Below are positions 1,269 to 42,745 of a stretch of 49,944 nt of DNA, piece after piece. The stretch comes from Candidatus Eiseniibacteriota bacterium. GTDB taxonomy: Bacteria; Joyebacterota; Joyebacteria; Joyebacterales; Joyebacteraceae. Position numbers and translations under genes: made by a program. Each line of letters begins with the position of its first letter. The stretch's first letter is position 1. The stretch spans positions 1-49,944 of the forward strand of contig JAUVLP010000005.1 of assembly GCA_030600655.1 (NCBI GenBank), in the 5' to 3' direction. The notes under the pieces are model-generated. The model did no database searches. It had not been told where the DNA came from and saw only the letters and a list, made by a program, of their open reading frames with translations.

Positions 1269-1400
1269 TCAACAATATTGACAGCGCCACCCCGGACCAA
1301 GCACTCTATTGCTTGAAGCGCCGCCGCCTTCGCAGATTGGCACGAAGCTCGCATCTTGAGACCGGCTCCGCAGAACGCAACACCCCTGGAGGAACGCACA

Positions 1401-3578
1401 ATGAGGAATCGTTCTAGATCCGCTCGCTCGATACTGGCTATCGCGGCATTGCTGGCTCTGCTCGTACCCAGCACACCGCGCGCGCAAGACCGCTACGACA
1501 ACACCTGGATGAAGGACTTCATGATGGATGCACCGTGGCGTGTCAAGAATGCAGACACGTCCATTCCTCTCATGCTCGTTCTCAAAGACTGCGACTCGGA
1601 TGACATTCGTGAGCTTCATTGGATACGGTGCTGGGACGTGACGTCGGGTGAGACGATTCTATGGAACCACGACTTTGGCGATGAGCAAATCGGTGATGAT
1701 CCATACGAGTCGAACTACTGGACGTGGATCACGACAGTGACCGAAGGACATCCGTCTCTCCCGGACGGAACGCCTTTGACCCCGGCGAATCTGGGCTACG
1801 CGGCGGGCGACGCCATCAACCTGAAGGTCTCCATCTACTACAAGGACGACTGGTTCAACTACGAGGAGACACGCTACCTCAGAGTTCACGTGGGATGTGG
1901 CGACTACCCGTGGCCGGACGGTTGGTACGGTGGAGACACGCACTATCACACGATGTACACGAACAACCTGGCCGAGTTCGGGGCGCCCCTTCCCGCCGTA
2001 GTGCGTGCAGGAGAGGCGATGGGCCTCCACTGGCTTACGACGACCGATCACTCGTGCGATCTTGATGAGACGGGCGACGGCACCTACTCCTACGCGACTA
2101 CGCACTGGGAGTACACGATCCAGGACGAGACGGGGATCAACACAGTCTATCGCGACAACACGGCCATCGGGACCACGTGGGATGTCCTCGGTGATGATGT
2201 CGCCATGCTTGACTCGCCATCCTTCCGCCTCTACCGAGCGGTGGAACTGAATGCCGCCTCAATCGATGGCGACTCGTTCAACAAGACGTTGCATACACTT
2301 GTCTACAACGAGAACTACATTTCCTCCCCGCTCTCCGGAGCGCTCGGCGAGCGTCCGGTAACCCCGGATCTTCCCGGCGTGCTTTCTCAGATCAGCGGCG
2401 GCGGTTTCATGTATGCGGCCCACCCCTTGTCAGACATGAGCGCCGAGTGGGGAGGCCTGGACTGGGGCATCGACGGCACTATGTGGGGTGATGAAGATAT
2501 CGCCACCGCGCTCGGCTACGAGGTTTTCAAGGGCCTCCAGGCATTCAATACGCGGCATTCGTTGTACTCCAACGATCAGAACAACCCTTGGTCGGACTTC
2601 GATGCCGGCGTGACTCCGAGCGACCCGTATCCGAACGAGCTTCTCGCCGGAATCGCCACGTGGAACGGCCTCCTGGAGACAGGGCTTGATCCGCTCGTCA
2701 AGTGCTTCCTCTCAGGCGGAAGCGATGCGCACGGCGATCTTAACTACGGGACGTTCATAGGCCTCGACAACTATGCAACAGATAACGCCATCGGGAAAGT
2801 GCAGACGGTGGTCCAAGTGCCGGGCTCGTACGGCCCCGGCAACCTCCCACCAATCAGTGAGCTTCTGGCAGCGCTCCGGGCTGGGCGCAGCGTGGTGACT
2901 GACGGTCCTTTCGTCCTCTTGGGGATTGACGAGAATGGTGACGGCGACTTCGACGACGCCCTGGATCTTGCCATTGGCGAGGATGGCTCGTGGGAACCGT
3001 TCCAGGAGCTTCCGATCACGCTCAGGTGGTGTTCAATGGAGGACTTCGGACCAATCGTACACGTTGAACTCCTGTCATCGACTGAGACCGGCACGCAGAC
3101 ACTCTTCTCATTCAACCCTGATGCTATCGGGGAGGGATACGCGGGCGAGCAAGTGCTCGAATACCCGCCGGGGAATTTCGACGAACCACAGGCCTTCCGC
3201 GTCGAGTGTCGCTCCGCAAGAGATGGCCAGACGTATCGCGCCTACTCGAATCCTGTGTGGGTTGGTTTCGATGCCACATCGGTGGCCGGTCATGCGCCGG
3301 AGAGCGGCCTCTGGTTGCAGGCGCGAGGGAATCCTTTCACGTCAGGCACATCGATCGACTTCTCCGTACCGTCCGGCAGCGATGCAAGGATGGCTGTCTT
3401 TGACATATCCGGCCGCGTCGTCACAACACTGCATATCGGCAGTGCAGACGAGCGCGCGAACACGGTCACCTGGAGCGGCACCGACCGCGCAGGCAGGCAC
3501 GTCGCATCGGGCGTCTATCTCATCACCTTGTCATCCGGCACTGAAACTGTGACAGCAAAGGTGGTACTGCTGCGCTGA
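1401..3578 (+). CDS. Secreted PHP-domain phosphoesterase-like protein with FlgD-like sorting domain
   Basis: The ATG at 1401 is preceded by GGAGG at 1388 and begins a clear signal peptide (basic n-region, then ILAIAALLALLVPS, cleavage near AQD), giving 725 residues; the in-frame ATG at 1356 lacks this support. PHP-type metal-binding motifs are spread through the middle: G-D-T-H-Y-H (D179, H181, H183), T-T-D-H-S near 215, A-A-H-P (H341) and G-G-S-D-A-H (D442, H444). These suggest a metal-dependent phosphoesterase or related hydrolase. The last 90 residues form a FlgD-like Ig domain (RGNPF, VASGVYL, VVLLR end), so the protein is predicted to be exported to the surface or medium. The substrate cannot be inferred. 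PHP proteins are usually cytoplasmic, so an exported one is uncommon. Confidence 0.85.
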   Translation: MRNRSRSARSILAIAALLALLVPSTPRAQDRYDNTWMKDFMMDAPWRVKNADTSIPLMLVLKDCDSDDIRELHWIRCWDVTSGETILWNHDFGDEQIGDDPYESNYWTWITTVTEGHPSLPDGTPLTPANLGYAAGDAINLKVSIYYKDDWFNYEETRYLRVHVGCGDYPWPDGWYGGDTHYHTMYTNNLAEFGAPLPAVVRAGEAMGLHWLTTTDHSCDLDETGDGTYSYATTHWEYTIQDETGINTVYRDNTAIGTTWDVLGDDVAMLDSPSFRLYRAVELNAASIDGDSFNKTLHTLVYNENYISSPLSGALGERPVTPDLPGVLSQISGGGFMYAAHPLSDMSAEWGGLDWGIDGTMWGDEDIATALGYEVFKGLQAFNTRHSLYSNDQNNPWSDFDAGVTPSDPYPNELLAGIATWNGLLETGLDPLVKCFLSGGSDAHGDLNYGTFIGLDNYATDNAIGKVQTVVQVPGSYGPGNLPPISELLAALRAGRSVVTDGPFVLLGIDENGDGDFDDALDLAIGEDGSWEPFQELPITLRWCSMEDFGPIVHVELLSSTETGTQTLFSFNPDAIGEGYAGEQVLEYPPGNFDEPQAFRVECRSARDGQTYRAYSNPVWVGFDATSVAGHAPESGLWLQARGNPFTSGTSIDFSVPSGSDARMAVFDISGRVVTTLHIGSADERANTVTWSGTDRAGRHVASGVYLITLSSGTETVTAKVVLLR

Positions 3579-3708: not shown

Positions 3709-6219
3709 CTATTTGATGAGCACCATCTTGACGGCGTCATCGAAATCCTCGGTCTGCATGCGGGCGAAGTAGACGCCTGCCGCGACACGCTCTCCACTTG
3801 CATCACGACCGTCCCAAACGGCCACGTGAGAGCCGGCATCCATGGGTCCGCTCTCCAGCGTGCACACGAACCGGCCCGCTGCATCGTAGACCTTGAGCGT
3901 CATGTGCGAACGCTCGGATAGCGAGAACTGTACGCTGGCCGTCGGACCGAACGGATTCGGATAGGCGGGCGACAACGCGAGTCTCGTTTCAGCGCCTGGG
4001 TCGATCACATCCGTTCCACCCATTGACACACCCCAGATCTCAACATCATCGATGTTCCAACCGGAGAACTGCCAGCTTGAATCGGTGGAACCCATGGTCC
4101 AGCGGAGATAGACGATCGACTCTTCAGCCGCGATTGAGGAGATGTCATACTCAAGCTGCGACCACGAGGAATCCTCGGTGTGGCTGTCCGGGTTACTCCA
4201 GATCGTCTCCCAAGACGAACCGTCGTTGCTCACGCGGATGTACGCATGATCATACGAGCAGCGCTCGACGTTGAGCCAACGCCAGAACTTGACGGTCACA
4301 GTGCCAAGGTCGGAGCAGTCGATCGCTGTGGTCGTCAGGTGACACTCTGAGAGGCTGTTCTCATAGTCGCCGCTCAGATTGTAGCCGTAGACGTTGGAGC
4401 TCGTGTGCCCTGACGTGGGATCGGCGTTACCGTACTCGCCACCTCCGCCGGTCGGGCTACCAAACGCCCAGAGCCCCTTCGTCGTCCAGCCTGGGTCCGT
4501 GTCCATCGGGAAGCTGTAGACCAGTTCCGGAAGACCGACCGTCAGAGTAACGCCTCTCGAAGTGTCGCCGACGTGATCGGTCTCGTTGACAAATTCCAGC
4601 AGGTCGGTGTACACACCGTTCCCAAGAGAGTTAGCCGCAGAGTTGATCGTGACCGTTACATTCACAGTCGCGTGGGCGTTCAGATGGCCGCTTGCGTTCG
4701 CAAGGGTGATCCACGCCACGCTCTTGGAGACGCTGTAATCGATCCCCGTGTCGTCCTGGTTCTCAACCACGTAGATAAACTCGCTCGGAGTAAACGGGCC
4801 GCCGGAGCTGCCTTCCGATACCGCTGCGGACGACGGTGTCACACGCATCCCAGCCGCGAACGGCGAGTAGAGATCGACCGCAGTTGCACCTGTCGAAGCA
4901 GGATCCAGCCAGTCGCTCAGGCGAGAGCTGCTCAAACCGCCACCCGTCCACGACGTCGAGATGCGTCCGTACCAGTCGGACTCATCGTTGCCGCACGCTG
5001 CATAACCACCGTGAAGCTGACCGACGATACGATGGTTCTGGTCGAAGAGCGGTGAACCGGACGAACCGGGCTCGGTCGTACCTACGTCCCAGTCGACCAC
5101 GCGCACGTGCGAACCGTCGCCTGGTTGACTGGTTCCGAGATAGCTCGTTGTCTGGCAGGCATCGTACTCAAAGCTGATGCACTTGACGTCGGCATCAGGC
5201 TGATGGATGGCAGTCGCACTTGTTGCATCCGCCGTCGTACGGTCCCAACCGGCGAACGTGACGCCATGAGTTGGGTCTGGATCCGAATCGAGCTCAACCA
5301 GGGTGAAGTCGGAGGTCGAGTACCCAGCCCGGAAGTAGGAGCCGGTCTGGTAGTCGCTGAACGAACCGCCGCCAAGATCGCCACAGTTCGGACTTTCGTA
5401 GTTCCAGTAGACGACGAGCGAGGCCGCGTTACCCGTGTTGATACCACAGTGGTTCGCCGTCATGAAGTAAGGGGTCGCATCCTGTGCGGTGTTGTTCACC
5501 ATGAAACCTGTGCAGAAAGTGGAACCGCCGGTCGAGATGACACCGACCGAGGCGATGTCATCGCGCCAGCCGTCGCCTTCCGGACAGACTACGTCTATGT
5601 TGCACCATCCCGGGCTTCTGTCGATGAGTTCACCAAAACCCCGGTAACCAACGTTGATCGAGCTGAGTTCCAGCTCGAGGTCGTCCACTGCTTTCGTAGC
5701 GATGGTGAGTTCTATGACGACATCGTCGGAGAGCACAACGGGCGTCCACAGCTCGCCGTGATCCTCGTTGTCCAGAGCAGTGTACGGACCGGCGATGTGC
5801 GAACCGTCGGCCGCATAGATGAGAAGACTGCCGGTTGTCGGCAGATGATAGCGACCGAAACCGAGGTTGATCGACGATGCTCCGTCAGAGGTGACTCTGA
5901 GGCGCCAGAGCCTGGTCGCGAAGTCCACATCCTCCCATGTACCATCGGTCGCCGGGGAGATGGAGACTGCATTGGGAATCGCGTAGCGCGGCGGGAGCCC
6001 CTGCTCCTCGCGGAGTTCATCCTCGAAAGACAGCTCTGCACGATCGACGGTCGGCACGCGCAGAAGCTCCACCGACTCCAGCGGAAGCACATCGGCCGTA
6101 TCAGCCGTCGGTGTCACATCGACAGCGCCGGCAGAACCCGCCGCCATGGCGAGCGAGATCAGGACTGTGAGGAGCGCGGCGTACGTGAACCCAGCGCCGC
6201 TGCGGTCTCTTGCGAGCAT
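3709..6219 (-). CDS. Secreted lysyl-endopeptidase-like serine protease (S1 type) with FlgD-like sorting domain
   Basis: 836 residues; the ATG at 6219 follows a GGGAGG ribosome site by six bases. A hydrophobic signal segment (about 10-32) is followed by a propeptide and a trypsin-fold domain (about 205-425). The catalytic triad is visible: H257 in T-A-N-H-C-G, D304 in S-D-F-T-L-V, and S387 in G-S-S-G-S-P. The G-S-S-G-S-P-L-F form and the several cysteines resemble Achromobacter-type lysyl endopeptidases, so cleavage after basic residues is likely but unproven. Next come an Ig-like region (about 455-560), a jelly-roll/MAM-like segment (about 565-735) and a FlgD-like Ig domain ending KMVLIK. Expected to be surface-bound or released. 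A candidate -10 (TATACT) lies on the minus strand near 6300. It is transcribed in the same direction as the C25 protease gene upstream. Confidence 0.88.
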   Translation of the reverse strand: MLARDRSGAGFTYAALLTVLISLAMAAGSAGAVDVTPTADTADVLPLESVELLRVPTVDRAELSFEDELREEQGLPPRYAIPNAVSISPATDGTWEDVDFATRLWRLRVTSDGASSINLGFGRYHLPTTGSLLIYAADGSHIAGPYTALDNEDHGELWTPVVLSDDVVIELTIATKAVDDLELELSSINVGYRGFGELIDRSPGWCNIDVVCPEGDGWRDDIASVGVISTGGSTFCTGFMVNNTAQDATPYFMTANHCGINTGNAASLVVYWNYESPNCGDLGGGSFSDYQTGSYFRAGYSTSDFTLVELDSDPDPTHGVTFAGWDRTTADATSATAIHQPDADVKCISFEYDACQTTSYLGTSQPGDGSHVRVVDWDVGTTEPGSSGSPLFDQNHRIVGQLHGGYAACGNDESDWYGRISTSWTGGGLSSSRLSDWLDPASTGATAVDLYSPFAAGMRVTPSSAAVSEGSSGGPFTPSEFIYVVENQDDTGIDYSVSKSVAWITLANASGHLNAHATVNVTVTINSAANSLGNGVYTDLLEFVNETDHVGDTSRGVTLTVGLPELVYSFPMDTDPGWTTKGLWAFGSPTGGGGEYGNADPTSGHTSSNVYGYNLSGDYENSLSECHLTTTAIDCSDLGTVTVKFWRWLNVERCSYDHAYIRVSNDGSSWETIWSNPDSHTEDSSWSQLEYDISSIAAEESIVYLRWTMGSTDSSWQFSGWNIDDVEIWGVSMGGTDVIDPGAETRLALSPAYPNPFGPTASVQFSLSERSHMTLKVYDAAGRFVCTLESGPMDAGSHVAVWDGRDASGERVAAGVYFARMQTEDFDDAVKMVLIK

Positions 6220-6429: not shown

Positions 6430-9400
6430 TTACTTAAGCAACACCATCTTCACAGCATCGTCGAAGCCCTCAGCCCGCATACGGCAGAAGTAGACACCTG
6501 ACGCGACTGAACGACCATCGTTGTCCCGACCGTACCAGACGGTGCTGTAATAGCCGGCCTCGACCTCTCCCTCGACGAGAGTCTTCACCAACCGGCCGTT
6601 CACGTTGTAGATCGCAAGCTCCACGTCGCTCGCTCTCGGTGCGCCGTAGGCTATCACAGTCATGGGATTGAATGGGTTCGGCGCAACACCTCCAAGGACA
6701 TACGACCTCGGGATATCGAACTCATCATCCACGCCCGTCCACGGCAAGCCACCCGTCACCTTCACACACCATGTGTGGAGTGTTCCAAGATCGCCGCCTG
6801 CGTTATCACTCACCCAGATCTCCCACTCACCGAGCGCATTCTCGCCAATGAAATCATCCAGCGAGCCCGGACCATCAACTGAGATCTCCAACGGATACCA
6901 TCCAAGGATGTCACTCGAGCTGCCACCGGAGCGGTTGTGAAGCCTGACCGTCGTGCCCTCCGGTGATGTGATCTCCACGATGAGATCACCTATGTAGGTA
7001 TGCGTCAGATTCAGATAGACCTCAACCTCGGAGATCGCGACATCGTCCGGGAACTGCAGCTGGCCGTAGACACCCACGGGGCTATTATCCGGAATCGGGA
7101 GCTCAGGGGTCTCGCAGTACTGGTATATGGTGACCGGGGTCAACACGAAATCGACGCCGCTCACATGCCCGCTTGCTGAAACAACGATCTCATCCATAAC
7201 GGCCGTACTCCACTCATCCTTCGTCGCGGTGACCGTGTAGGTTCCAGCGTAGAGATTCTCGATCTGGTAGCTACCATTCACATCGGTGAAGTCATTCTGG
7301 CCACCGGGAGAGACCGTCACCTTCACACCACTGTGGTCGCTCTCACTCTCCAGGAAGACATGCCCGGATATGCTGCCATCCGGCAGACCCTCTGGGGTCA
7401 TGAGATACGTGACAGTATTCTCGAGAAGGTCCTTCCGCCCGGCAGCATTGGCAGCGCCGTAGTTGAATGAGTAGAAAACGATCTGACCGCTCGCCGGGTT
7501 CGCTGTGTCATCGTAGACCAGCACGCTCGCGAGTGTCCCGTAGCCCGACCAGCTCATCACGATGTCGGCGTCGGACGTCGGGATATAGGAGTCATGGTCG
7601 CCATAGCCGGAGTAATTGACTGTAATGTCGCCGACCGTGTTCGGGAACGTCGTGATCGGGTGCGCTCCGTCGTAGACCGTGATGCCCGTACCGCTCGAGT
7701 CGTGCTCCCAATCGTACGAGTGGAGCACGTTTGCAGCGAACGTTGGATAGCCGGGATAGCTCGAGGCGTCGTAAGATAGCTCACCGCCCTCGATGAGCAA
7801 CTTGCCACCGGCGGCAATGTACGCCTCAAGAGCATCACGGTAGCTCAGCGCTACGACCGGGCCAGTATTGTTGCCGCATGACCAGATGATGAAGTCGTAA
7901 TTCTCCCAGGTCGCAGGGTCGCTCACTGCGGCCGTCTCCATTGTGACGTCGAAGCCCAGATCGATCAGGTCGGTCTCGAAATCCAGTGCTGCCGCCTCCT
8001 GCGGACCATCGTAGGTGTCGAGCACGGCGCCCGTCTTGTCAATCTTGACCGTCTCGTCCTTCGCCCCACCATCCTGGATGATCAGAAGGTTCGCGAGCGT
8101 CGGCTCGAGATAGAATTGCTCGTTCTCGTTCGGCTCGTCGATCACGACGCCGCGGGTCTCCGGAATGTAATGATACGCCCGGACCTTGAACGTGTAGTTG
8201 AAGTACGGGAGCGTCGCCTCGAAGCGCCCACCGGCGAGCGAGTCCGAGAAAACCTCCATGTACAGTTCGCCACTGTCGGCGCGATAGATCTTGACCGAAG
8301 CCGAGAGCGGATCCATTGTTCCGACCTCAAGAACCGCGCCCATCACGAGTCCTGAGGGCGCCGGGTCGAGCAGGAAATCGACATCGTTGACGCCATACTG
8401 GATGAAGAGTTCCTCGGTGTGTGTGAGGTAGCCGAACTTCATCACGTAGATATCGTAGTAGCCAATCTCGAGCTCGTCCTCAACCACATACGTCCCGCCC
8501 GCGATCGTCAGCGCATCGAATACGGGACCCACGGCCGCCGTGTCGGCGCCCGCCACGTAGCCCTTCACCTTCGCGCCATCAAGCGCTCCACCGCCGTTCT
8601 CTGCGACTGATCCTGAGATCGTCCCGTAGACGACCTCGACCAGGATGTCTTCGAGATAGACGTTGAACCCGCTCTTTCCAATGGCAGCGTGAACGGTTCC
8701 TGGCTCGGTGCACGTATCGAGGATATCAACTGTCATCGCGCCGCCCGAGTTGGCGCCGGCGTCTATGCCGCAACCAACAGCGTGCAGATCAAAGTCCGTC
8801 TCGGACGCCGTACCTGTAATGGTGCCTTCGTAGTAGGGCGCGAGGAACCCGTACAGACCAATTGACGGCACGCTCGCCTCAATGTCGACCGATGCAAGGT
8901 CAGCAGCGCCCGTAACTGGAAGCACATCCGACAGGCAGTCGTACGTCTCGCTGATCCGGCTACCGAGGACAACAAGATCCTCACCGTATGGCGCGGTTAC
9001 CGTGAGCATGGCCTCACCATTGACGTCAGTGGTGTCGAGGACGGCATCAATACCCCATCCGTCGATCGTGATGACGACATCCGGCTCCAGGTAACCCTCA
9101 CTGTCCCAGACAGTGACCGTGACATCGGTCGCGATGTTGACGGGGACCGTGCCCGGCACGATCGTGTAGGTCACGGGGTAGATAACGGGAACATCCTCAG
9201 AGTAGCGGTAGTAGTTTGGCTTCGTGACCGTGAGCCTCATCGTACCCGGCACCATCGCCGGAATGACGGACATGTCCATCGGTGCGCCCGTCCCATCGGC
9301 CACACCAATGATCTCCCCATCGACCGTGAGAGCCACAATGGAACCCTCATCCGCCGTCACACTGAACGTCGCAGCGCCTATGGGCAACAGACCCTGGTGG

Positions 9401-11301
9401 CTGACTGTCAGATCCTCCGGGACCTCGGAGTAGAGCTGTGTGAAGGCATCACCGTGCGCGTGAAATAGGTGGTAGGTAACTTCCTTGGACTCCGGGTTGT
9501 ATGGCCAGCTCGAAGCCCAGAGGAAGTGCTTGCCGGACGCGTTACCGAACGCTGGCCGCATGACTCCGCTCGACTCGTTGAACCGGCTCTTGACCGGGTA
9601 GCCGGGGTCGAAGTCCGGGAACATTTCGTCGTAGATCCCGAAAATATACGTGTCGTTCACGAACGAGTAGGAACTCTCGGACGCCGCGATGATCCCGAGC
9701 GCGCCGTGTTCGTGGCGATGGAACGCCTCGGCGAAACACTCACCTGAGATTCCGTACATGCCGGTCATGCAGTTGATGGAGAACACATACGGCAGGTCGG
9801 CGTTCGTGAGACCCGCCATGTCTCCGATATCGTAGGCGGGGTGCCCCCAGGCCGTCTCGTTACCGTGATCACGGTGTTGGAGAATGAACGCCCCGGCATT
9901 GATGTCCGCATTCAGCCTGGTAGCATTGCCGCCCCAGTCGGTCAGGTGGCTCGAATCCTCCGGGAGATAGCCAAGCCCGTCGGGACCGAAGTAGTCCTCC
10001 AACATGTATGTGTTCGCGTTCGTCGACCAGTACGTGCCGGGGGTTCCGTCGTAGATGGCGTACTCGCGAACCGGGGTCTTGCCGTGGACGTTGGCGAAAT
10101 AGCCATAGAGGATCTCGGTGCACATCTGGAACCATCGCGTGTCCTGCCACCCGCACGCCATGATCGGATTCTGATAGAAACCAGGGTTCGTCGGTGGGCT
10201 GCGCTCGTAGCTGATAGCTTTCGTGACCAGAAGCTCGATGTTGTCCACGGTGGCCGTCATCCTACCCATGACTATCTCGGGCAGATGGTCACCATCGATA
10301 TCACCGTAGATGTTGTCGGACAGGCAGTAGCCACCGTAGGTCGGCGAAGTGATGCCTGTGGTGCCTCCGCTCGACACGTAGTCGGCAAGCAGGAGAATTG
10401 CCACGGGCGGTGTACTCCATGTCGTGTACGCGTTGTTGATCCAACTCTCGATGTCGGTGTATGTGGAACCCGTCTCAGTCAGAGTCACGACACCGGTATC
10501 GATGCCCTGATTCGTGCGCCACTGCTTGATGGAGTCGGCCCAAGCGATGTATGTGGGATCGTCCGGCACTACGATGACGTACTCGTACTCGTCGTCGCGA
10601 CCAGTTCTGATCCCGTAGTCCATCTCCGGAAGCAATTCGTAATTGACAAGGTTCGCCGCGAGAATCGGATCCCAGTAACGGCTACGGTATCTGTCCTCAC
10701 CGAAGTGACCACTCCCGCCATCGAACGTCACGCGGACCTCGATGTCAGTGTAGGCGGTGAGTTCACGCGTTATGGGATTGTACTGGAAGGGCGTGATACC
10801 AAGCGTGGTGACGTCGACTCCGCGCATCTGGTGTACGTCGGACAGGCGCACGAACTCCGCAGGAAACGCCGCATTCAGCGAATAGATGGACTCGTTCTTC
10901 ACGTGGACGAGCGGCGAATCATCGCTCTCGAAGGGAATCCTCGGCGCCGGGAGAACATCTATTCCCGTGAAGACCTGCGCTTTCGCAGAGAGGATCTCGA
11001 GATGGGGTGTCGCTCCCTCGGGCAGCGCCATCAGTCTTCCCACGCCGGGAAGGTTCGGGGCACCCTCATCGTTCGGCAGCACGAGACCCGATATCAGGAT
11101 CTGCTGGAATATCTCCCCGTCGACTTCGACGTCCTCGATGCTGATCTCACTCAGTCTGTACGAGATATCAATGAACGAATCAGATTGCTGCTCGACGACC
11201 AAGCCGTCCTGTCCCAGGTTCTCCTCAAACACGATCGTCCGGGCTGGGGAGATCGAGACCATCAGAGCCAAGACTGCCAACACCCACGGGGCGACTCTCA
11301 T
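6430..11301 (-). CDS. Gingipain-like C25 cysteine protease, multidomain, with P-domain and FlgD-like sorting domain
   Basis: 1623 residues from the ATG at 11301, which has AGGAGG six bases upstream and a signal peptide (VLAVLALMVSIS, cleavage near ART). The open frame continues 43 codons upstream, but without a ribosome site. A propeptide (about 25-225) precedes a C25 catalytic domain (about 235-580). Likely catalytic residues are H479 in R-D-H-G-N and C511 in S-I-N-C-M-T-G, as in gingipains. Then follow a C25-type Ig domain, several carboxypeptidase-regulatory-like beta domains, a flavodoxin/GATase-like domain (IWSCGNN, GGKLLIEGGE), another regulatory-like repeat, a proprotein-convertase P-domain (THTYIGDLIVEITSPEG region) and a FlgD-like domain ending KMVLLK. 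Predicted to be an exported endopeptidase. In known relatives such proteins use type IX secretion, whose machinery is not in this window. Confidence 0.92.
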   Translation of the reverse strand: MRVAPWVLAVLALMVSISPARTIVFEENLGQDGLVVEQQSDSFIDISYRLSEISIEDVEVDGEIFQQILISGLVLPNDEGAPNLPGVGRLMALPEGATPHLEILSAKAQVFTGIDVLPAPRIPFESDDSPLVHVKNESIYSLNAAFPAEFVRLSDVHQMRGVDVTTLGITPFQYNPITRELTAYTDIEVRVTFDGGSGHFGEDRYRSRYWDPILAANLVNYELLPEMDYGIRTGRDDEYEYVIVVPDDPTYIAWADSIKQWRTNQGIDTGVVTLTETGSTYTDIESWINNAYTTWSTPPVAILLLADYVSSGGTTGITSPTYGGYCLSDNIYGDIDGDHLPEIVMGRMTATVDNIELLVTKAISYERSPPTNPGFYQNPIMACGWQDTRWFQMCTEILYGYFANVHGKTPVREYAIYDGTPGTYWSTNANTYMLEDYFGPDGLGYLPEDSSHLTDWGGNATRLNADINAGAFILQHRDHGNETAWGHPAYDIGDMAGLTNADLPYVFSINCMTGMYGISGECFAEAFHRHEHGALGIIAASESSYSFVNDTYIFGIYDEMFPDFDPGYPVKSRFNESSGVMRPAFGNASGKHFLWASSWPYNPESKEVTYHLFHAHGDAFTQLYSEVPEDLTVSHQGLLPIGAATFSVTADEGSIVALTVDGEIIGVADGTGAPMDMSVIPAMVPGTMRLTVTKPNYYRYSEDVPVIYPVTYTIVPGTVPVNIATDVTVTVWDSEGYLEPDVVITIDGWGIDAVLDTTDVNGEAMLTVTAPYGEDLVVLGSRISETYDCLSDVLPVTGAADLASVDIEASVPSIGLYGFLAPYYEGTITGTASETDFDLHAVGCGIDAGANSGGAMTVDILDTCTEPGTVHAAIGKSGFNVYLEDILVEVVYGTISGSVAENGGGALDGAKVKGYVAGADTAAVGPVFDALTIAGGTYVVEDELEIGYYDIYVMKFGYLTHTEELFIQYGVNDVDFLLDPAPSGLVMGAVLEVGTMDPLSASVKIYRADSGELYMEVFSDSLAGGRFEATLPYFNYTFKVRAYHYIPETRGVVIDEPNENEQFYLEPTLANLLIIQDGGAKDETVKIDKTGAVLDTYDGPQEAAALDFETDLIDLGFDVTMETAAVSDPATWENYDFIIWSCGNNTGPVVALSYRDALEAYIAAGGKLLIEGGELSYDASSYPGYPTFAANVLHSYDWEHDSSGTGITVYDGAHPITTFPNTVGDITVNYSGYGDHDSYIPTSDADIVMSWSGYGTLASVLVYDDTANPASGQIVFYSFNYGAANAAGRKDLLENTVTYLMTPEGLPDGSISGHVFLESESDHSGVKVTVSPGGQNDFTDVNGSYQIENLYAGTYTVTATKDEWSTAVMDEIVVSASGHVSGVDFVLTPVTIYQYCETPELPIPDNSPVGVYGQLQFPDDVAISEVEVYLNLTHTYIGDLIVEITSPEGTTVRLHNRSGGSSSDILGWYPLEISVDGPGSLDDFIGENALGEWEIWVSDNAGGDLGTLHTWCVKVTGGLPWTGVDDEFDIPRSYVLGGVAPNPFNPMTVIAYGAPRASDVELAIYNVNGRLVKTLVEGEVEAGYYSTVWYGRDNDGRSVASGVYFCRMRAEGFDDAVKMVLLK

Positions 11302-11473
11302 CGCTGCCTCCTGCGTAGCATGAGCCTGCATGCGTGCAGCCGGTATCCCCCATTGTCGAAGAATACCAGCCACACCGTAACTTACGGTCCTTATAGCACT
11401 ATTTGTGGAATTTTTCCAGTAGAAGTTCACTTCTCACTGCAACTGCGCAGGCTGTGCATGTCAGCAGGAGTGT

Positions 11474-19127: not shown

Positions 19128-20174
19128 CTACCGGTAGAGAGCCTTGATGGAACCCCAGCTCCCCTCCTCAACCGCCGACGTGCACTCGTAACCGTCGATG
19201 GTGAGGTAGTAATCGGAACCACAGACGTAGCCCGTATCCCATGAATCCGTCGAGACGAAGATAACCGTCTCGCCGACCGGAACAGAGTACGAAAGCGTCG
19301 CGTACGTGCAGCTCGGTGTCGTGGTGGACACATAGAACACGCCGTTTGCTATGTCAACGAAGCCGATGAGGGCGCCGAATTCAGCCTCGATACCGATCGT
19401 GATCGTGGCGGGCACCTCAACGTTCAGCATGTACCAATCAGTATCTCTGTAGTCCGAGCCCTCGAAGTCGTACACACCGCTGGTACCACAGATCACGATG
19501 GTCTCGTTACTGCAATCGACATACGAGTAGACCGGCGGCTCGCTGTTGATACCACCATTGAAGTTATCAACATATCCGTCGTAGCAGTCGACCTCGCCCT
19601 CGAGAAGCGCTCCCGCTGGGCACTCGACCACGCACAGCTCGACCTCATAAACGTCGAGAATGTAGTCGCCACAGTCGCCGCCGTAACCATCGACGACGAT
19701 GTAGTAGGTGTGACCGGCGTAGAACGCAATCTCGGTCAGCCATGACTGGTACATGTACGTGTTGTAGTCGCCACATGCACCGTTGTCATCATTACAGGCA
19801 TACGGGGCGCCCGGTGTGTGTGCATCCTCGTACACAAAAACCTTCGTGTCGTAGGATGACATGCACAGGAATATGTCGACGACCACATCGGCGCCAGGCG
19901 TGAACGCATAGACGCAGTCCGGTGAAGTTGATCCCGTGTAGGGGCAGACTTCGTCGTAGTCATCAAGGAACGCGCACGTGTTACCGGCATCCGAGAACGG
20001 CAGTGCGCCGATCACGGTGGCGGTCGCAATGGTCTCACCACCGACACGGCCGGTCGGGTGCGCAACGCCGGACACGACGTTCTGCTTGACGAGAGCGACG
20101 TTAGTCGGCGAGACGGCGAGAGCAACCATGCTTAAGGCAACAATCACAACCACTGCAAGATAAACGACCTTCAT
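19128..20174 (-). CDS. Secreted protein with PPC-like domains and short SWGxIK-type C-terminal tail
   Basis: 348 residues from ATG 20174, six bases behind AGGAGG; an ATG at 20178 abuts the ribosome site and is less likely. A signal peptide covers about 1-21. The body has two regions resembling bacterial pre-peptidase C-terminal (PPC) domains. The first, about 50-175, contains D-C-V-Y-A-F-T-P, Y-D-T-K-V-F-V-Y-E and Y-Y-I-V-V-D-G-Y; the second is about 200-330. It is rich in Cys, Asp and Tyr. It ends in E-E-G-S-W-G-S-I-K-A-L-Y-R, almost the same tail as the beta-helix protein near 31.3 kb. No enzyme motif is seen. Probably an extracellular or surface protein of unknown role. Confidence 0.8.
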   Translation of the reverse strand: MKVVYLAVVVIVALSMVALAVSPTNVALVKQNVVSGVAHPTGRVGGETIATATVIGALPFSDAGNTCAFLDDYDEVCPYTGSTSPDCVYAFTPGADVVVDIFLCMSSYDTKVFVYEDAHTPGAPYACNDDNGACGDYNTYMYQSWLTEIAFYAGHTYYIVVDGYGGDCGDYILDVYEVELCVVECPAGALLEGEVDCYDGYVDNFNGGINSEPPVYSYVDCSNETIVICGTSGVYDFEGSDYRDTDWYMLNVEVPATITIGIEAEFGALIGFVDIANGVFYVSTTTPSCTYATLSYSVPVGETVIFVSTDSWDTGYVCGSDYYLTIDGYECTSAVEEGSWGSIKALYR

Positions 20175-20276
20175 TTGCATCCTCCTGGATCGAAGAACGA
20201 GATGTCACTCACGAAAGCACAACTTCCGATGCGCATCCCCCCTTTCCCAAGGATAAGTACTTCTGAGTTGAGTGTC

Positions 20277-22739: not shown

Positions 22740-22823
22740 AGATCTCGAAGTGTCTCAAGCATGCCGATTGTTGCAGCGCGGAGTGTTGGATGTGAACTTC
22801 GATGATTGTACCAGTGTTGATCC

Positions 22824-22882
22824 GAATCCCCATGCGGGGATTCACAGCGAGAGGCGAGTTGGATTCAGCCGGTGAGAACCGG
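22824..22882 (+). promoter_or_regulatory. Two hairpins in the hcp leader
   Basis: GAATCCCC-ATGC-GGGGATTC (22824-22843) and CCGGT-GAGA-ACCGG (22869-22882) precede the hcp ribosome site at about 22891. They could stabilise or pace the mRNA; no known riboswitch was recognised. Confidence 0.5.
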
Positions 22883-22900
22883 CCCAACCAGGAGAACAGA

Positions 22901-24547
22901 ATGTACTGTTTTCAGTGTGAACAGACGGCGAAAGGAACGGGCTGCTCTATTGCCGGCGTATGCGGCAAGGCCTCTTCGACCGCGAATCTGCAGGATCTTC
23001 TGATCCACGTTGCCACCGGGATCTCGATGTGGGCGCACCGAGCGCGCGCGCATGGCGCAGTGGACAGAGACGTTGATGTCTTCATCATAGAGGCGTTTTT
23101 CACAACCGTGACCAACGTCAACTTCGACGACGAGCGCATGGCCGACCTCATTCGCAAAGCGGCTGAGATCAAGGACCGCGCCCGCTCGCTCTACGAAAGG
23201 GCCTGTGCGACTGACGGGACAACACCAGAAGTACTGGACGGCCCTGCCGTCTGGACCCCGGCCGCCAGCCACGACGAGCTTCTTGCTCAGGCTGCAAAGG
23301 TCTCGATCCTTGCACGGCGCGAGTCGCTCGGCGAAGATATCTCCAGTCTTCAGGAGCTCATAACATACGGTCTCAAGGGCGCAGCTGCGTACGTCGACCA
23401 CGCTCACATACTGGGCGTTGATGATAATGAAATCTACGGCCTTTTCCACGAGGCGCTCGACACGCTGACGCGAACCGACGCGACTGTGGAGGAGTTGACA
23501 GCCTGGGCACTCAAGACCGGCGAGATCAACCTGAAGGCAATGGAGATCCTCGATCGCGCCAACACATCAACCTACGGACATCCCGTGCCGACTGTGGTGC
23601 GCGTTACTCCGGTAGCCGGCAGATCCATTCTGGTTTCCGGCCACGACCTGCTCGATCTAGAAGAGCTCCTGAAACAGACTGAGGGCAAAGGCATCAACAT
23701 CTACACGCACGGCGAGATGCTTCCTGCTCACGGTTACCCGGAGCTCAAGCGGTACAAACATCTTGTCGGGAACTACGGCGGTGCATGGCAGGATCAGGCT
23801 AAGGAGTTTGATGCGTTCCCGGGTTCGATCCTCATGACTACGAATTGTATCCAGAAACCGCGTGTTTCCTACATGGACCGCATCTTCACATCGGGACTTG
23901 TTGCCTGGCCCGGAGTCACACACATTTCGAATCGCGACTTCACGCAGGTCATCAAGGCAGCGGAAGCCGCAGGCGGCTTCGACGCGGATGAACCTGAAAA
24001 GAGCATCACAGTTGGTTTCGGGCATAACGCCGTACTGGGCATCGCAGACAAGATTGTCGAAGCCGTCAAGGCAGGCTCGATTCGGCACTTCTTCCTGGTC
24101 GGCGGCTGCGATGGAGCCAGGAGCGGGAGAAATTACTACACGGAGTTCGCCAAGAACGTGCCGGAAGACTGCGTCATACTGACGCTTGCCTGCGGCAAGT
24201 ATCGTTTCAACAAACTCGAGTTCGGCGACATCGGCGGCATCCCCCGACTCCTGGATGTCGGACAGTGCAACGATGCCTATTCAGCGATCAGGATCGCCAC
24301 GGCTCTCTCCGAGGCGTTCGGCGTAGGCGTCAACGAGCTTCCGCTCTCGTTCATATTGTCCTGGTACGAGCAGAAGGCAGTGGCCATATTGCTCACTCTG
24401 CTGCACTTGGGAATCAAGGGCATTCGCCTTGGGCCAACGCTCCCGGCCTTCGTCTCCCCCAATGTGCTCGACCTTCTTGTGAGGGAGTACGATCTGAAGC
24501 CGATCGGCACTGCGGAGGCGGATCTCGCTGAGATCTTCTCCGCCTAG
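22901..24547 (+). CDS. hcp: Hydroxylamine reductase / hybrid cluster protein
   Basis: 548 residues from ATG 22901, with AGGAG upstream; the earlier in-frame start at 22802 lacks support. The N-terminal cluster motif C3-x2-C6-x8-C15-x5-C21 matches Desulfovibrio-type Hcp. Hybrid-cluster cysteines are recognisable in T-N-C-I-Q-K-P, G-G-C-D-G-A, L-A-C-G-K-Y-R and V-G-Q-C-N-D. Members reduce hydroxylamine in vitro and NO in vivo, and act as nitrosylases. Cytoplasmic. It follows the Rrf2 regulator by 160 bases. No hcr reductase gene is adjacent. A weak GC hairpin (24573-24595) follows. Confidence 0.97.
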   Translation: MYCFQCEQTAKGTGCSIAGVCGKASSTANLQDLLIHVATGISMWAHRARAHGAVDRDVDVFIIEAFFTTVTNVNFDDERMADLIRKAAEIKDRARSLYERACATDGTTPEVLDGPAVWTPAASHDELLAQAAKVSILARRESLGEDISSLQELITYGLKGAAAYVDHAHILGVDDNEIYGLFHEALDTLTRTDATVEELTAWALKTGEINLKAMEILDRANTSTYGHPVPTVVRVTPVAGRSILVSGHDLLDLEELLKQTEGKGINIYTHGEMLPAHGYPELKRYKHLVGNYGGAWQDQAKEFDAFPGSILMTTNCIQKPRVSYMDRIFTSGLVAWPGVTHISNRDFTQVIKAAEAAGGFDADEPEKSITVGFGHNAVLGIADKIVEAVKAGSIRHFFLVGGCDGARSGRNYYTEFAKNVPEDCVILTLACGKYRFNKLEFGDIGGIPRLLDVGQCNDAYSAIRIATALSEAFGVGVNELPLSFILSWYEQKAVAILLTLLHLGIKGIRLGPTLPAFVSPNVLDLLVREYDLKPIGTAEADLAEIFSA

Positions 24548-31286: not shown

Positions 31287-32516
31287 CTACCGCCACATCG
31301 ACTTCACGCGCCCCCAGCTCATCTTCTGCACCGGCGAGTCGCAGCCCTGCCCGTAGGCGCCCAGCTGCACGCTGCAGTCGTTGCCTCCGGGAAGACACGG
31401 AGACGTATCGAACAACCGGTAGTCGGCTATGTCTAACCCGCAGAGCTGCGGATTCTCGGAGATGTTGCCATCGAGGCCCGTCTGGTCGGTAAGACTGCCG
31501 CCGTAGTCCCCCCCCGCATTGCCGTATACGTCGCAGCACGACATCGTCGGAAGATAACCCTCGGTCGCGTAGACACCCTCGCCGCTCTCGCTGAAGGCGA
31601 TGATGCAGTTTGTGAGGGTGCCAGTGCCCGCACTACAGTAGACGTTCCCGCCATCCTGAGCGGTGGCGTTGTCGACGATGGTGCAGCCGACAGCGGAACC
31701 CGCCTGGAGCCAGAGTCCGCCTGCGTAGTTCGTGGTCGCCTCGTTCCGGCTGATGTCGCAATCGGTCAGAAGCGGCTGGTAGCCCGACAGCCGGACACCT
31801 CCCGCTCTGAGTGCAACGTTGCTGACGATCGCGCAATCGCTGAACTCCATTGTGCCGACGGAGGATGTGTAGAGGCCGCCCGCTATGCCCGTGGCCTCGT
31901 TGTCGATGATCGTGCACCTCTCGTAGAAGCCGCCCCCACCAGACACGGCAACGCCCCCACCGTAGTCCCCGGTATTGCCTGTGAAGGTGCAGTCCTGAAC
32001 CCAGGGGCTGCCCATGTTACTTACGTAGAGACCTCCGCCATATCTGACGCCGCCCACCGCCGTGCACTGGGCCACGATGCAGTTGACCAGATCCGGATCG
32101 GCGCCCTGGACCCAGATACCTCCACCGCCATCCGTCGTCACATACCCATTGATGATCCCAATGTCCTGGAGCCGGGCTGTCTCGCTTCCGGTCGTGGTGA
32201 AGTGAAACCCGCGGTGCTCCGCGCGCGCGCTTCCCTCGCAGTCGATAATGCAGGCGGCCGGATCTCCTCCCTGCGAGCGTATCGTCACACTTACCGAGGG
32301 CACGACGATGTCCCGATTGCCGTCGCCGGTGAACGTCCCGTCTGTCAGCTCGATGATGTCACCTTCGACCACGATATCGACCGCTGCCTGGATCGTCGGA
32401 AAATCCCCGAGACCATCGGCACTGACTGTGTAGATGACGGCCCCAACCGGAACGGCGACCACAGCAACGAACGCGGCAGCAATGACGCACATATTCACAC
32501 AATTGGCAATCCTCAT
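31287..32516 (-). CDS. Secreted right-handed beta-helix protein with short SWGxVK-type C-terminal tail
   Basis: 409 residues from ATG 32516, five bases after GAGGGGG; the longer open frame to 32654 has no such site. A signal peptide covers about 1-26. The N-terminal F-P-T-I-Q-A-A-V-D block is typical of pectate-lyase-like/parallel beta-helix proteins. It continues with repeated turns of G-G-G-[ILV]-[WYV] and C-x-[IF]-x-x-N (e.g. GGGLYVSN, GGGVAVSG, GGLWLQAG). No catalytic residues are evident. It ends in S-P-V-Q-K-M-S-W-G-R-V-K-S-M-W-R, closely matching the tail of the protein at 19128-20174. Probably exported; possible polysaccharide binding or structural role. Confidence 0.85.
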   Translation of the reverse strand: MRIANCVNMCVIAAAFVAVVAVPVGAVIYTVSADGLGDFPTIQAAVDIVVEGDIIELTDGTFTGDGNRDIVVPSVSVTIRSQGGDPAACIIDCEGSARAEHRGFHFTTTGSETARLQDIGIINGYVTTDGGGGIWVQGADPDLVNCIVAQCTAVGGVRYGGGLYVSNMGSPWVQDCTFTGNTGDYGGGVAVSGGGGFYERCTIIDNEATGIAGGLYTSSVGTMEFSDCAIVSNVALRAGGVRLSGYQPLLTDCDISRNEATTNYAGGLWLQAGSAVGCTIVDNATAQDGGNVYCSAGTGTLTNCIIAFSESGEGVYATEGYLPTMSCCDVYGNAGGDYGGSLTDQTGLDGNISENPQLCGLDIADYRLFDTSPCLPGGNDCSVQLGAYGQGCDSPVQKMSWGRVKSMWR

Positions 32517-40737: not shown

Positions 40738-40804
40738 ATAGGGAAGTGATACGGTTCTCTTGCTCGCCCCCAAGACAGAGGAACAACAGGAAGAGAGACA
40801 ACAC

Positions 40805-42745
40805 ATGCGATACGGCAAAGTCCTGGTGGTGGTGGCAGCTCTGCTCGTCACGTTCCTTCCCCAAACGGCGCTCGGCCTCAGGGTGGTTACATACAACGTA
40901 CTCAATTTCCCCGGCACAACTGGCTCGGCCCGTGAGGACGATTTCGTAAAGGTCTGCGATGAGCTCGACGCGGACATAATCGTCGTGCAGGAGATGCTCA
41001 GCCTTGCAGGCACGAACCAGTTCCTGAACGACATCCTGAACTACACTGTACCCGGGACATATGCCGCCGGCCCATTCGTGAACGGATACGATACCGACAA
41101 TGCTCTCTTCTACCGCACAGCCACCGTGGACTACATCTCGCACCAGGAGATATCCACGGCCCTCAGGAACATCTCCGAGTACGTCCTCCGTCCTGTCGGC
41201 TACAGCTCCTCTGATGCAGAGCTCACGATTTACTCTCTCCACCTCAAGGCTGGGTCTAGTTCATCGGACCAGACGAAGCGCCTGACTGAGGCGACGATAC
41301 TCAGAAACCACACGAACAATCTTGACCCCGACACCCACTTCATCATCGCCGGCGATTTCAATATCAGAGGGAGTTCCGAGAACGCATACCAGAAGCTGGT
41401 GGGAAGCGAGGCGGACAACGACGGTCGTGTGAAGGATCCCATCAACAGATCCGGGTATTGGCACGACAGCTACACGTTCAGGGACATCCACACGCAGTCT
41501 CCACGCACAACGCAGTTCGGTGGAGGCGCAACGGGCGGGATGGATGACCGCTTCGACCAGCTCCTCATCTCATACCCACTCGACGACGGGAACGGCCTAT
41601 CGTACGTATCCGGAAGTCACGTTGCCTACGGTAATGACGGCGGCCATCTGAACCAGGCCATCAACTACGGCACGAACTACGCCGTCGGATCCGTCATCGC
41701 CGACGCGCTTCACGAGGCATCCGATCATATCCCGGTCTACGCGGATTTCCAGGTGCCTGCGAAGATCGACTGTGCATCATCACTGGCATTCGGCGAGGTG
41801 ATCGTCGGTGCGGTCGCAGAAGAGATTCTCTCTGTCGGCAACTCCGCCACCACTCCGGCGGACGACCTTGACTACTCGTTCAGCGCTCCTTCCGGCTTCG
41901 AAGCGCCTGCCGGTGGTTTCTCTGAGCCCTCAGCTGGAAGCAGTGGGCACACCATCTCTATGAACACCTCCTCAACCGGGGCGCAAGCAGGCAACCTGGT
42001 GGTGTCATCGAACGACGTCGACCTGCCGTCGGCGAGCGTCGCTCTCTCAGGAACAGTACTCGACCATGCCACACCGTCGCTTGCGGCGGCGGAGATCCTC
42101 CTGGTCAACACTCTCGATTTCGGGACACACGACGCGGGCGACTTCGACCAGATGGAGATCAGCATTCACAACTTCGAATACGACAGCCTCCAGGCAACGC
42201 TTGAGATCTACGATGCCGAGATCGTCGGAGGCGAAGGGTTCTTCTCGATCGCCGGCGGATTCTCCAGTCAGGAGGCCGGATCTACACCCGCGGACTACGG
42301 TCTTGTGTTCGACGACGCCTCGGCGTCGACGGGCGTAGTCTACGAAGCGGTTCTCACATTCAGCACACGCGACCTTCCAGGCATAGCCGGTGGAACAGTA
42401 CACGATGATCTCACCATTCACCTGAGCGCGTGTCCCCTGAACGGCACATCGGTGCCGTCCGACGCCACGCGTTTCGCGCTTGCTCCCGGCAGACCCAATC
42501 CGTTCACTGACGCAACGGTACTCCAGTTATCGCTGCCGGCTGCGACAAAGGCCAGAGTGCTTGTATTCGACGTCTCCGGCAGACTTGTGAGAACTCTTGT
42601 CTCAGAGGTTCTGAGCGCGGGCGACCATGCTGTGCCGTGGGACGGTAGAGATGACCGCGATAAGCTCGTGGCATCGGGCATCTATCTCATACGCGCTGAT
42701 GCCGGCGAGTGGCAGCAATCGCGGAAAACTGTGTTCCTGCGGTAA
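40805..42745 (+). CDS. Secreted endonuclease/exonuclease/phosphatase-family protein with FlgD-like sorting domain
   Basis: 646 residues from ATG 40805, preceded by AGGAAGAGAG; a signal peptide covers about 1-24 (LVVVAALLVTFLP). The EEP fold spans about 25-315 with its usual motifs: T-Y-N-V-L-N (N31), V-V-Q-E-M (E63), S-L-H-L-K (H146), A-G-D-F-N-I (D184, N186) and A-S-D-H-I-P (D307, H308). Thus a metal-dependent phosphodiesterase or nuclease activity is likely. Residues about 325-435 form an Ig/ASH-like region, followed by a second beta domain and a FlgD-like domain ending K-T-V-F-L-R. Possibly an extracellular nuclease that scavenges phosphate or nucleotides; substrate unproven. Confidence 0.9.
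   Translation: MRYGKVLVVVAALLVTFLPQTALGLRVVTYNVLNFPGTTGSAREDDFVKVCDELDADIIVVQEMLSLAGTNQFLNDILNYTVPGTYAAGPFVNGYDTDNALFYRTATVDYISHQEISTALRNISEYVLRPVGYSSSDAELTIYSLHLKAGSSSSDQTKRLTEATILRNHTNNLDPDTHFIIAGDFNIRGSSENAYQKLVGSEADNDGRVKDPINRSGYWHDSYTFRDIHTQSPRTTQFGGGATGGMDDRFDQLLISYPLDDGNGLSYVSGSHVAYGNDGGHLNQAINYGTNYAVGSVIADALHEASDHIPVYADFQVPAKIDCASSLAFGEVIVGAVAEEILSVGNSATTPADDLDYSFSAPSGFEAPAGGFSEPSAGSSGHTISMNTSSTGAQAGNLVVSSNDVDLPSASVALSGTVLDHATPSLAAAEILLVNTLDFGTHDAGDFDQMEISIHNFEYDSLQATLEIYDAEIVGGEGFFSIAGGFSSQEAGSTPADYGLVFDDASASTGVVYEAVLTFSTRDLPGIAGGTVHDDLTIHLSACPLNGTSVPSDATRFALAPGRPNPFTDATVLQLSLPAATKARVLVFDVSGRLVRTLVSEVLSAGDHAVPWDGRDDRDKLVASGIYLIRADAGEWQQSRKTVFLR

Follow-up and report, generated by a model that had tools for sequence, protein, structure and literature searches.

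A short C-terminal tail on unrelated exported proteins of uncultured bacteria is probably a sorting signal

The window analysed here is a stretch of 49,944 nucleotides from contig JAUVLP010000005.1 of a Candidatus Eiseniibacteriota bacterium. It encodes two putative exported proteins that end in the same kind of short peptide, as well as proteins that end in a type A sorting domain of the type IX secretion system (T9SS) (Table 1). A first-pass annotation had picked out the two endings, SWGSIKALYR (19128-20180) and SWGRVKSMWR (31287-32516), and both ORFs and both tails were verified. For the PPC-like protein, it had placed the start at an in-frame ATG at 20174, six nucleotides inside the ATG used here. 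This protein had no match in Pfam or NCBIfam in family scans, while a relative (locus L040) is 52% identical to it and bears the same tail. The first protein lacks a family match and the second is a beta-helix; the annotation had seen no further similarity between the two. A signal-peptide-like N-terminal segment was found in each, and neither matched TIGR04183 or FlgD_ig, in agreement with the reported absence of the FlgD-like domain from both. TIGR04183 scores above the cut-off identify the window's FlgD-like domain as the T9SS type A sorting domain. It had been ascribed to five other exported proteins, and TIGR04183 was found in four of the ten other window ORFs scanned. The window also encodes a hybrid-cluster protein (hydroxylamine reductase; 22802-24547, NF003658, 828 bits).

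Table 1. Coordinates of the tail-bearing proteins and of the T9SS type A sorting domains in the window
Feature	Position	Strand	Basis or remark
PPC-like exported protein, 350 aa	19128..20180	-	ATG at 20180
Signal-peptide-like N-terminus MQMKVVYLAVVVIVALSMVALA	20115..20180	-	Sequence and rule-based scan
C-terminal tail AVEEGSWGSIKALYR plus stop	19128..19175	-	Pattern match
Right-handed beta-helix exported protein, 409 aa	31287..32516	-	Pfam Beta_helix, E 2.9e-13
Signal-peptide-like N-terminus MRIANCVNMCVIAAAFVAVVAVPVGA	32439..32516	-	Sequence; N-terminal helix in AlphaFold2 model
C-terminal tail PVQKMSWGRVKSMWR plus stop	31287..31334	-	Pattern match; predicted isolated helix
T9SS type A sorting domain (FlgD-like), end of ORF 3709-6219	3721..3963	-	TIGR04183, 33.5 bits (cut-off 23)
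T9SS type A sorting domain, end of ORF 6430-11430	6445..6687	-	TIGR04183, 24.3 bits
T9SS type A sorting domain, end of ORF 1356-3578	3330..3566	+	TIGR04183, 34.8 bits
T9SS type A sorting domain, end of ORF 40760-42745	42494..42727	+	TIGR04183, 25.4 bits

We have searched genomes with a degenerate DNA pattern encoding W-G-x-[IV]-K-x, one of L, M, I, V or F, one of Y, F, W and a few other residues, and R followed by a stop codon, the same pattern read backwards being the control. The 2.6-Mb genome of the window gave 33 matches, both window tails included, against none for the control. The tail was present in all 20 genomes of the window's phylum, with 10 to 59 matches each (715 in total) and again no control match. 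It was also present in 39 of 47 genomes of the Eisenbacteria group and in 72 of 78 of the Krumholzibacteria group (one control hit in all). The tail thus occurs more often than expected by chance, and a chance match was ruled out by the absence of control matches in the window's genome and in the 20 phylum genomes. Among the matches listed, the named genomes were Ca. Eisenbacteria, Ca. Effluviviacota, Ca. Latescibacterota, Ca. Krumholzibacteriia and Ca. Aegiribacteria, together with a Zixibacteria MAG and MAGs labelled Gemmatimonadota or Gemmatimonas. An Effluviviaceae MAG and named relatives of the phylum's genomes bear the same tails. According to the Effluviviacota phylum paper (PMC11323493), Effluviviacota shares a root with Latescibacterota, Eisenbacteria and two other lineages, which fits the spread of the tail. 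In a Zixibacteria MAG, two adjacent paralogues (L144:2700-4779) end in WGEIKAKYR and WGTIKAMYR, with drift at the -3 position.

The consensus drawn from 193 distinct tails was [ST]-P-V-E-x-x-[ST]-W-G-x-[IV]-K-[ASG]-[LM]-[YF]-R-stop, with I commonest at the [IV] position. The invariance of W, G, K and R was set by the search pattern and is no evidence. Conservation at the free positions was 94% for the [ST] before W, 66% for V at -14, 65% for E at -13 and 58% for P at -15. Variant tails were met by chance, among them WSSIKALYK, WGSIKALYQ, WGRIKLLFRR, WGEVKALFGRED and WGELKAIFLYHDRD. The pattern without the stop codon gave 825 matches. When 12 no-stop cases were inspected, 11 ended 9 to 37 residues from the W, mostly one or two residues beyond the R, and one was internal. 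The C-terminal position of the tail therefore stands, although the exact C-terminus that had been claimed for it is not always reached. The only internal copy seen, SWGEIKGMYR at L215:823-848, lies inside a longer frame of a MAM-like family and possibly arose by fusion of two copies.

The tails of the window's genome use all four Gly codons and five Arg codons, and the mean pairwise identity of their codons is 0.87 at second positions and 0.59 at third positions. The 60 bases downstream of the tail genes are unrelated (identity 0.26), and the upstream DNA is likewise unshared. A copied DNA element was ruled out by this codon variation and by the unshared flanks. In three alignments, of 136 mixed, 15 beta-helix and 12 small-family carriers, the most conserved nine-column window coincided with the last nine columns; this is partly built in, as the carriers were picked by the motif, whereas the upstream PVE and [ST] were not so picked. 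Judged from these sequences, the tail is under selection at the peptide level. It is highly improbable that the tail is a functionless copied element or a shared ancestral 3' end. Some carriers are indeed paralogous (the largest families have 47 and 22 of 192 members), but within families the tail is more conserved than the body, and it occurs in at least three phylum-level groups.

A signal-peptide-like start, called by a rule-based test rather than by SignalP, was found in 135 of 152 complete tail ORFs versus 97 of 562 other ORFs at the same loci. This supported that the tail proteins are exported and that the motif is not found equally in cytoplasmic proteins. The same start was present in 11 of 12 variant-tail ORFs and in 37 of 46 FlgD-ended ORFs. 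The 136 aligned carriers had a mean column identity of 6%, with the tail alone standing out, so that what had been noticed in two proteins holds for many otherwise unrelated ones. Their bodies include beta-helix, lamin-tail, PKD, FG-GAP, NHL propeller, phosphoesterase and choice-of-anchor J proteins, among others, and the tail is independent of the fold. Some carriers have body types that are found elsewhere with other C-terminal signals: choice-of-anchor J (4), rhombosortase/myxosortase-dependent M36-like, ExeM and ScyF. The median length was 271 aa for tail proteins versus 764 aa for FlgD-ended proteins. One carrier family has a predicted cohesin-like fold (best match E 1.5e-6, TM 0.56). It is family A3, with 12 members, and consists of small secreted tail proteins (L062, L077, L081, L130, L140 and L174), four of which are in tandem in L062.

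The AlphaFold2 model of the window's beta-helix protein has a mean pLDDT of 88.7, with most ten-residue blocks between 85 and 98. The pLDDT drops to about 48 over the last nine residues, and residues 398-408 form an isolated helix. In the model of an unrelated tail family, the body is mostly at 80-90, the tail is below 50 and the helix spans residues 175-182. Neither tail is predicted to pack confidently against its body, and these models suggest a detached short helix after a well-folded body. A C-terminal transmembrane segment (19-residue hydropathy of at least 1.6) was present in 1 of 192 tail proteins, and a CTERM signal of the transmembrane type was ruled out on this basis. The PEP-CTERM, GlyGly-CTERM and MYXO-CTERM signals resemble the tail in that a short C-terminal homology is shared by dozens of otherwise unrelated exported proteins in a genome, and their body families overlap with those of the tail. 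These signals, however, combine a signature motif with a transmembrane helix and a basic cluster, whereas the tail has no hydrophobic segment.

The tail and the type A domain exclude each other. TIGR04183 or FlgD_ig was found in 0 of 136 tail proteins scanned, in keeping with the prediction that the two never occur together, and no tail motif was found in the last 150 residues of FlgD-ended ORFs. A hidden T9SS C-terminal domain (CTD) in the tail proteins was ruled out by the same family scans. Of 192 tail proteins, 7 had G-x-Y, taken as a test for a motif D-like G[VI]Y element, in the 94 residues that precede the tail. The 20 phylum genomes have 43 to 150 type A domains and 8 to 30 C25 peptidases each. 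Once its tail is removed, the window's beta-helix protein matches a type A-ended protein of 1038 aa from L063 (30-38%), and the L051 and L053 proteins similarly match a type A-ended protein of 971 aa from L128 (35-40%). In L158, two neighbours on one contig, one tail-ended and the other type A-ended, have matching bodies (35-38%). These comparisons indicate that one kind of body can bear either end and that the ends are swapped.

Based on the peptide-level selection, the many unrelated exported carriers, the exchange with a secretion domain and the independence of fold, the tail is probably a sorting-type signal of some kind (probability of roughly 0.85). The earlier proposal of a sorting or processing signal is thus supported, as a reading of this pattern. 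The tail would be a modular C-terminal export or sorting signal of about 9 to 16 residues on proteins that are mostly small and exported by Sec. Once such a protein has left the cytoplasm through Sec, its globular part would fold, and the tail would stay free, as a short helix or a linear peptide. A periplasmic or outer-membrane receptor would then recognise the W, I/V, K, L/M, Y/F and R residues and take the protein to the surface or through the outer membrane, with any cleavage or anchoring being likewise conjectural.

The tail might instead be a docking or retention peptide of a protein that is already outside or periplasmic, its short helix binding a surface scaffold, porin or lipoprotein. 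The predicted detached helix is amphipathic, a few residues may follow the tail, which would suit a binding motif better than a cleaved end, and the cohesin-like fold of one tail family hints at surface assemblies. We consider this unlikely, since an export signal would more naturally be swapped with a secretion signal and no conserved scaffold gene lies beside the tail genes.

For a sorting-type signal, the most economical receptor would be the type IX apparatus, that is, the SprA translocon with one of several PorV-family shuttles. T9SS is generally present in these genomes and the PorV family is multiplied. Moreover, type A CTDs need their last 13 residues, including the motif E lysines, and 22 residues of HBP35 are enough for the secretion of GFP (PMC10202324). 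T9SS shuttles also tell signal types apart, different classes using different shuttles (PMC12618676). The type A CTD (TIGR04183/PF18962) is like the tail in being C-terminal on Sec-exported cargo of many families, in occurring in the same genomes with exchange of homologous bodies, and in ending with a basic residue after hydrophobic ones. It differs in having some 70-80 residues, a seven-strand Ig-like fold and motifs A-E, none of which is seen in the tail of about 16 residues. Were T9SS the reader, the tail would be a fourth and minimal signal class beside types A, B and C. Like the tail, type B (TIGR04131) and type C (ChiA-like) CTDs are alternative T9SS signal classes, type B having its own PorP/SprF shuttles. 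Neither TIGR04131 nor a type C model appeared for the 136 tail proteins among the 25 of 32 families listed, and no PorP/SprF-type gene was a recurrent neighbour of the tail genes.

The tail lacks the motifs and the beta-strand fold of known T9SS signals. With 40-55 residues and three strands, the short CTDs of Prevotella intermedia are the shortest T9SS signals used for comparison; type A models detect these CTDs, which retain motifs B, D and E (PMC11969387). They are similar to the tail in being a reduced signal beside long CTDs with no obvious split in cargo function, but the tail has about a third of their length and is predicted to be helical. This difference in length disfavours T9SS as the reader, as does the presence of the tail varying independently of T9SS. 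SprA_N, which marks the T9SS translocon, was detected in 23 of 25 tail-bearing genomes and in that of the window. The tail is missing from six genomes of the Eisenbacteria group (G067, G068, G069, G074, G075 and G076) that do have SprA, along with 29-83 type A domains, and SprA is also present in five tail-free genomes of the Krumholzibacteria group. With at least 11 SprA-positive genomes lacking it, the tail is separable from T9SS, which is not sufficient for its presence. Some tail-rich genomes have no SprA match, e.g., G099 (14 tails), G111 (18) and G148 (10); as the completeness of these MAGs is unreported, T9SS may or may not be necessary. Tail-free genomes with type A domains in the Eisenbacteria group were G051, G067-G069 and G073-G076, most of them with SprA.

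The earlier annotation had asked whether the number of tails tracks a particular exporter or protease; of SprA and PorV, the two that were profiled against the tail, neither did so. Within the two groups, the presence of SprA did not correlate with that of the tail (Fisher p 0.4-1.0), and SprA was ruled out as a tracking exporter. Each of the 47 Eisenbacteria-group genomes has 6 to 15 PorV-family proteins, tail-free genomes included, which ruled out this family as a discriminating partner; the correlation of PorV with the tail is weak (Spearman 0.41), with genome size and kinship as confounders. The neighbours that recur beside tail genes are confined to FlgD-ended proteins, housekeeping genes and ORFs that are likely spurious, with neither a candidate sorting enzyme nor a conserved scaffold gene among them. 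Taken together, we give T9SS about an even chance of being the reader, and a PorV-family shuttle would be its presumed partner.

A dedicated receptor, protease or transpeptidase of the superphylum, distinct from T9SS, might instead read the tail as exosortase reads PEP-CTERM. This is suggested by the tail-free genomes with T9SS and many type A cargos, by the tail-rich genomes without detectable SprA, by the absence from the tail of any feature of known T9SS signals and by bodies matching families that are paired elsewhere with dedicated sorting enzymes. We find such a reader doubtful, as every group seen with the tail belongs to lineages where T9SS is common, the bodies are swapped with type A cargo, no candidate enzyme was found beside the tail genes, and exosortase, rhombosortase and myxosortase signals need a transmembrane segment that the tail lacks. 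Only tentatively do we consider that an undescribed sorting system of this uncultured superphylum works beside T9SS, in which a peptide of about 16 residues, with neither transmembrane helix nor domain, and a reader of its own would serve small surface or extracellular proteins that form a set apart.

The tail is not a named family, as had been noted: no Pfam or NCBIfam model covers it, and it is thus a C-terminal signal described in neither database. In a literature search, no paper naming the motif was found, the sole text match being a chance one in an unrelated peptide paper. Sorting and T9SS are not discussed in the passages found of the Effluviviacota phylum paper (PMC11323493). Tail-bearing exported proteins number roughly 10 to 60 per genome in the window's phylum and fewer in the two other uncultured groups. 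If T9SS reads the tail, it would show how small a part of a CTD is needed, and to our knowledge no shorter T9SS signal is known. If T9SS is not the reader, the tail would mark a further sorting machine. Either way, it offers a simple handle for predicting exported proteins of these bacteria. As a separate observation, SprA, TIGR04183, PorV-family proteins and C25 peptidases occur commonly outside Bacteroidota, in three uncultured groups; a 2023 review termed T9SS CTD proteins restricted to Bacteroidota (PMC10202324).
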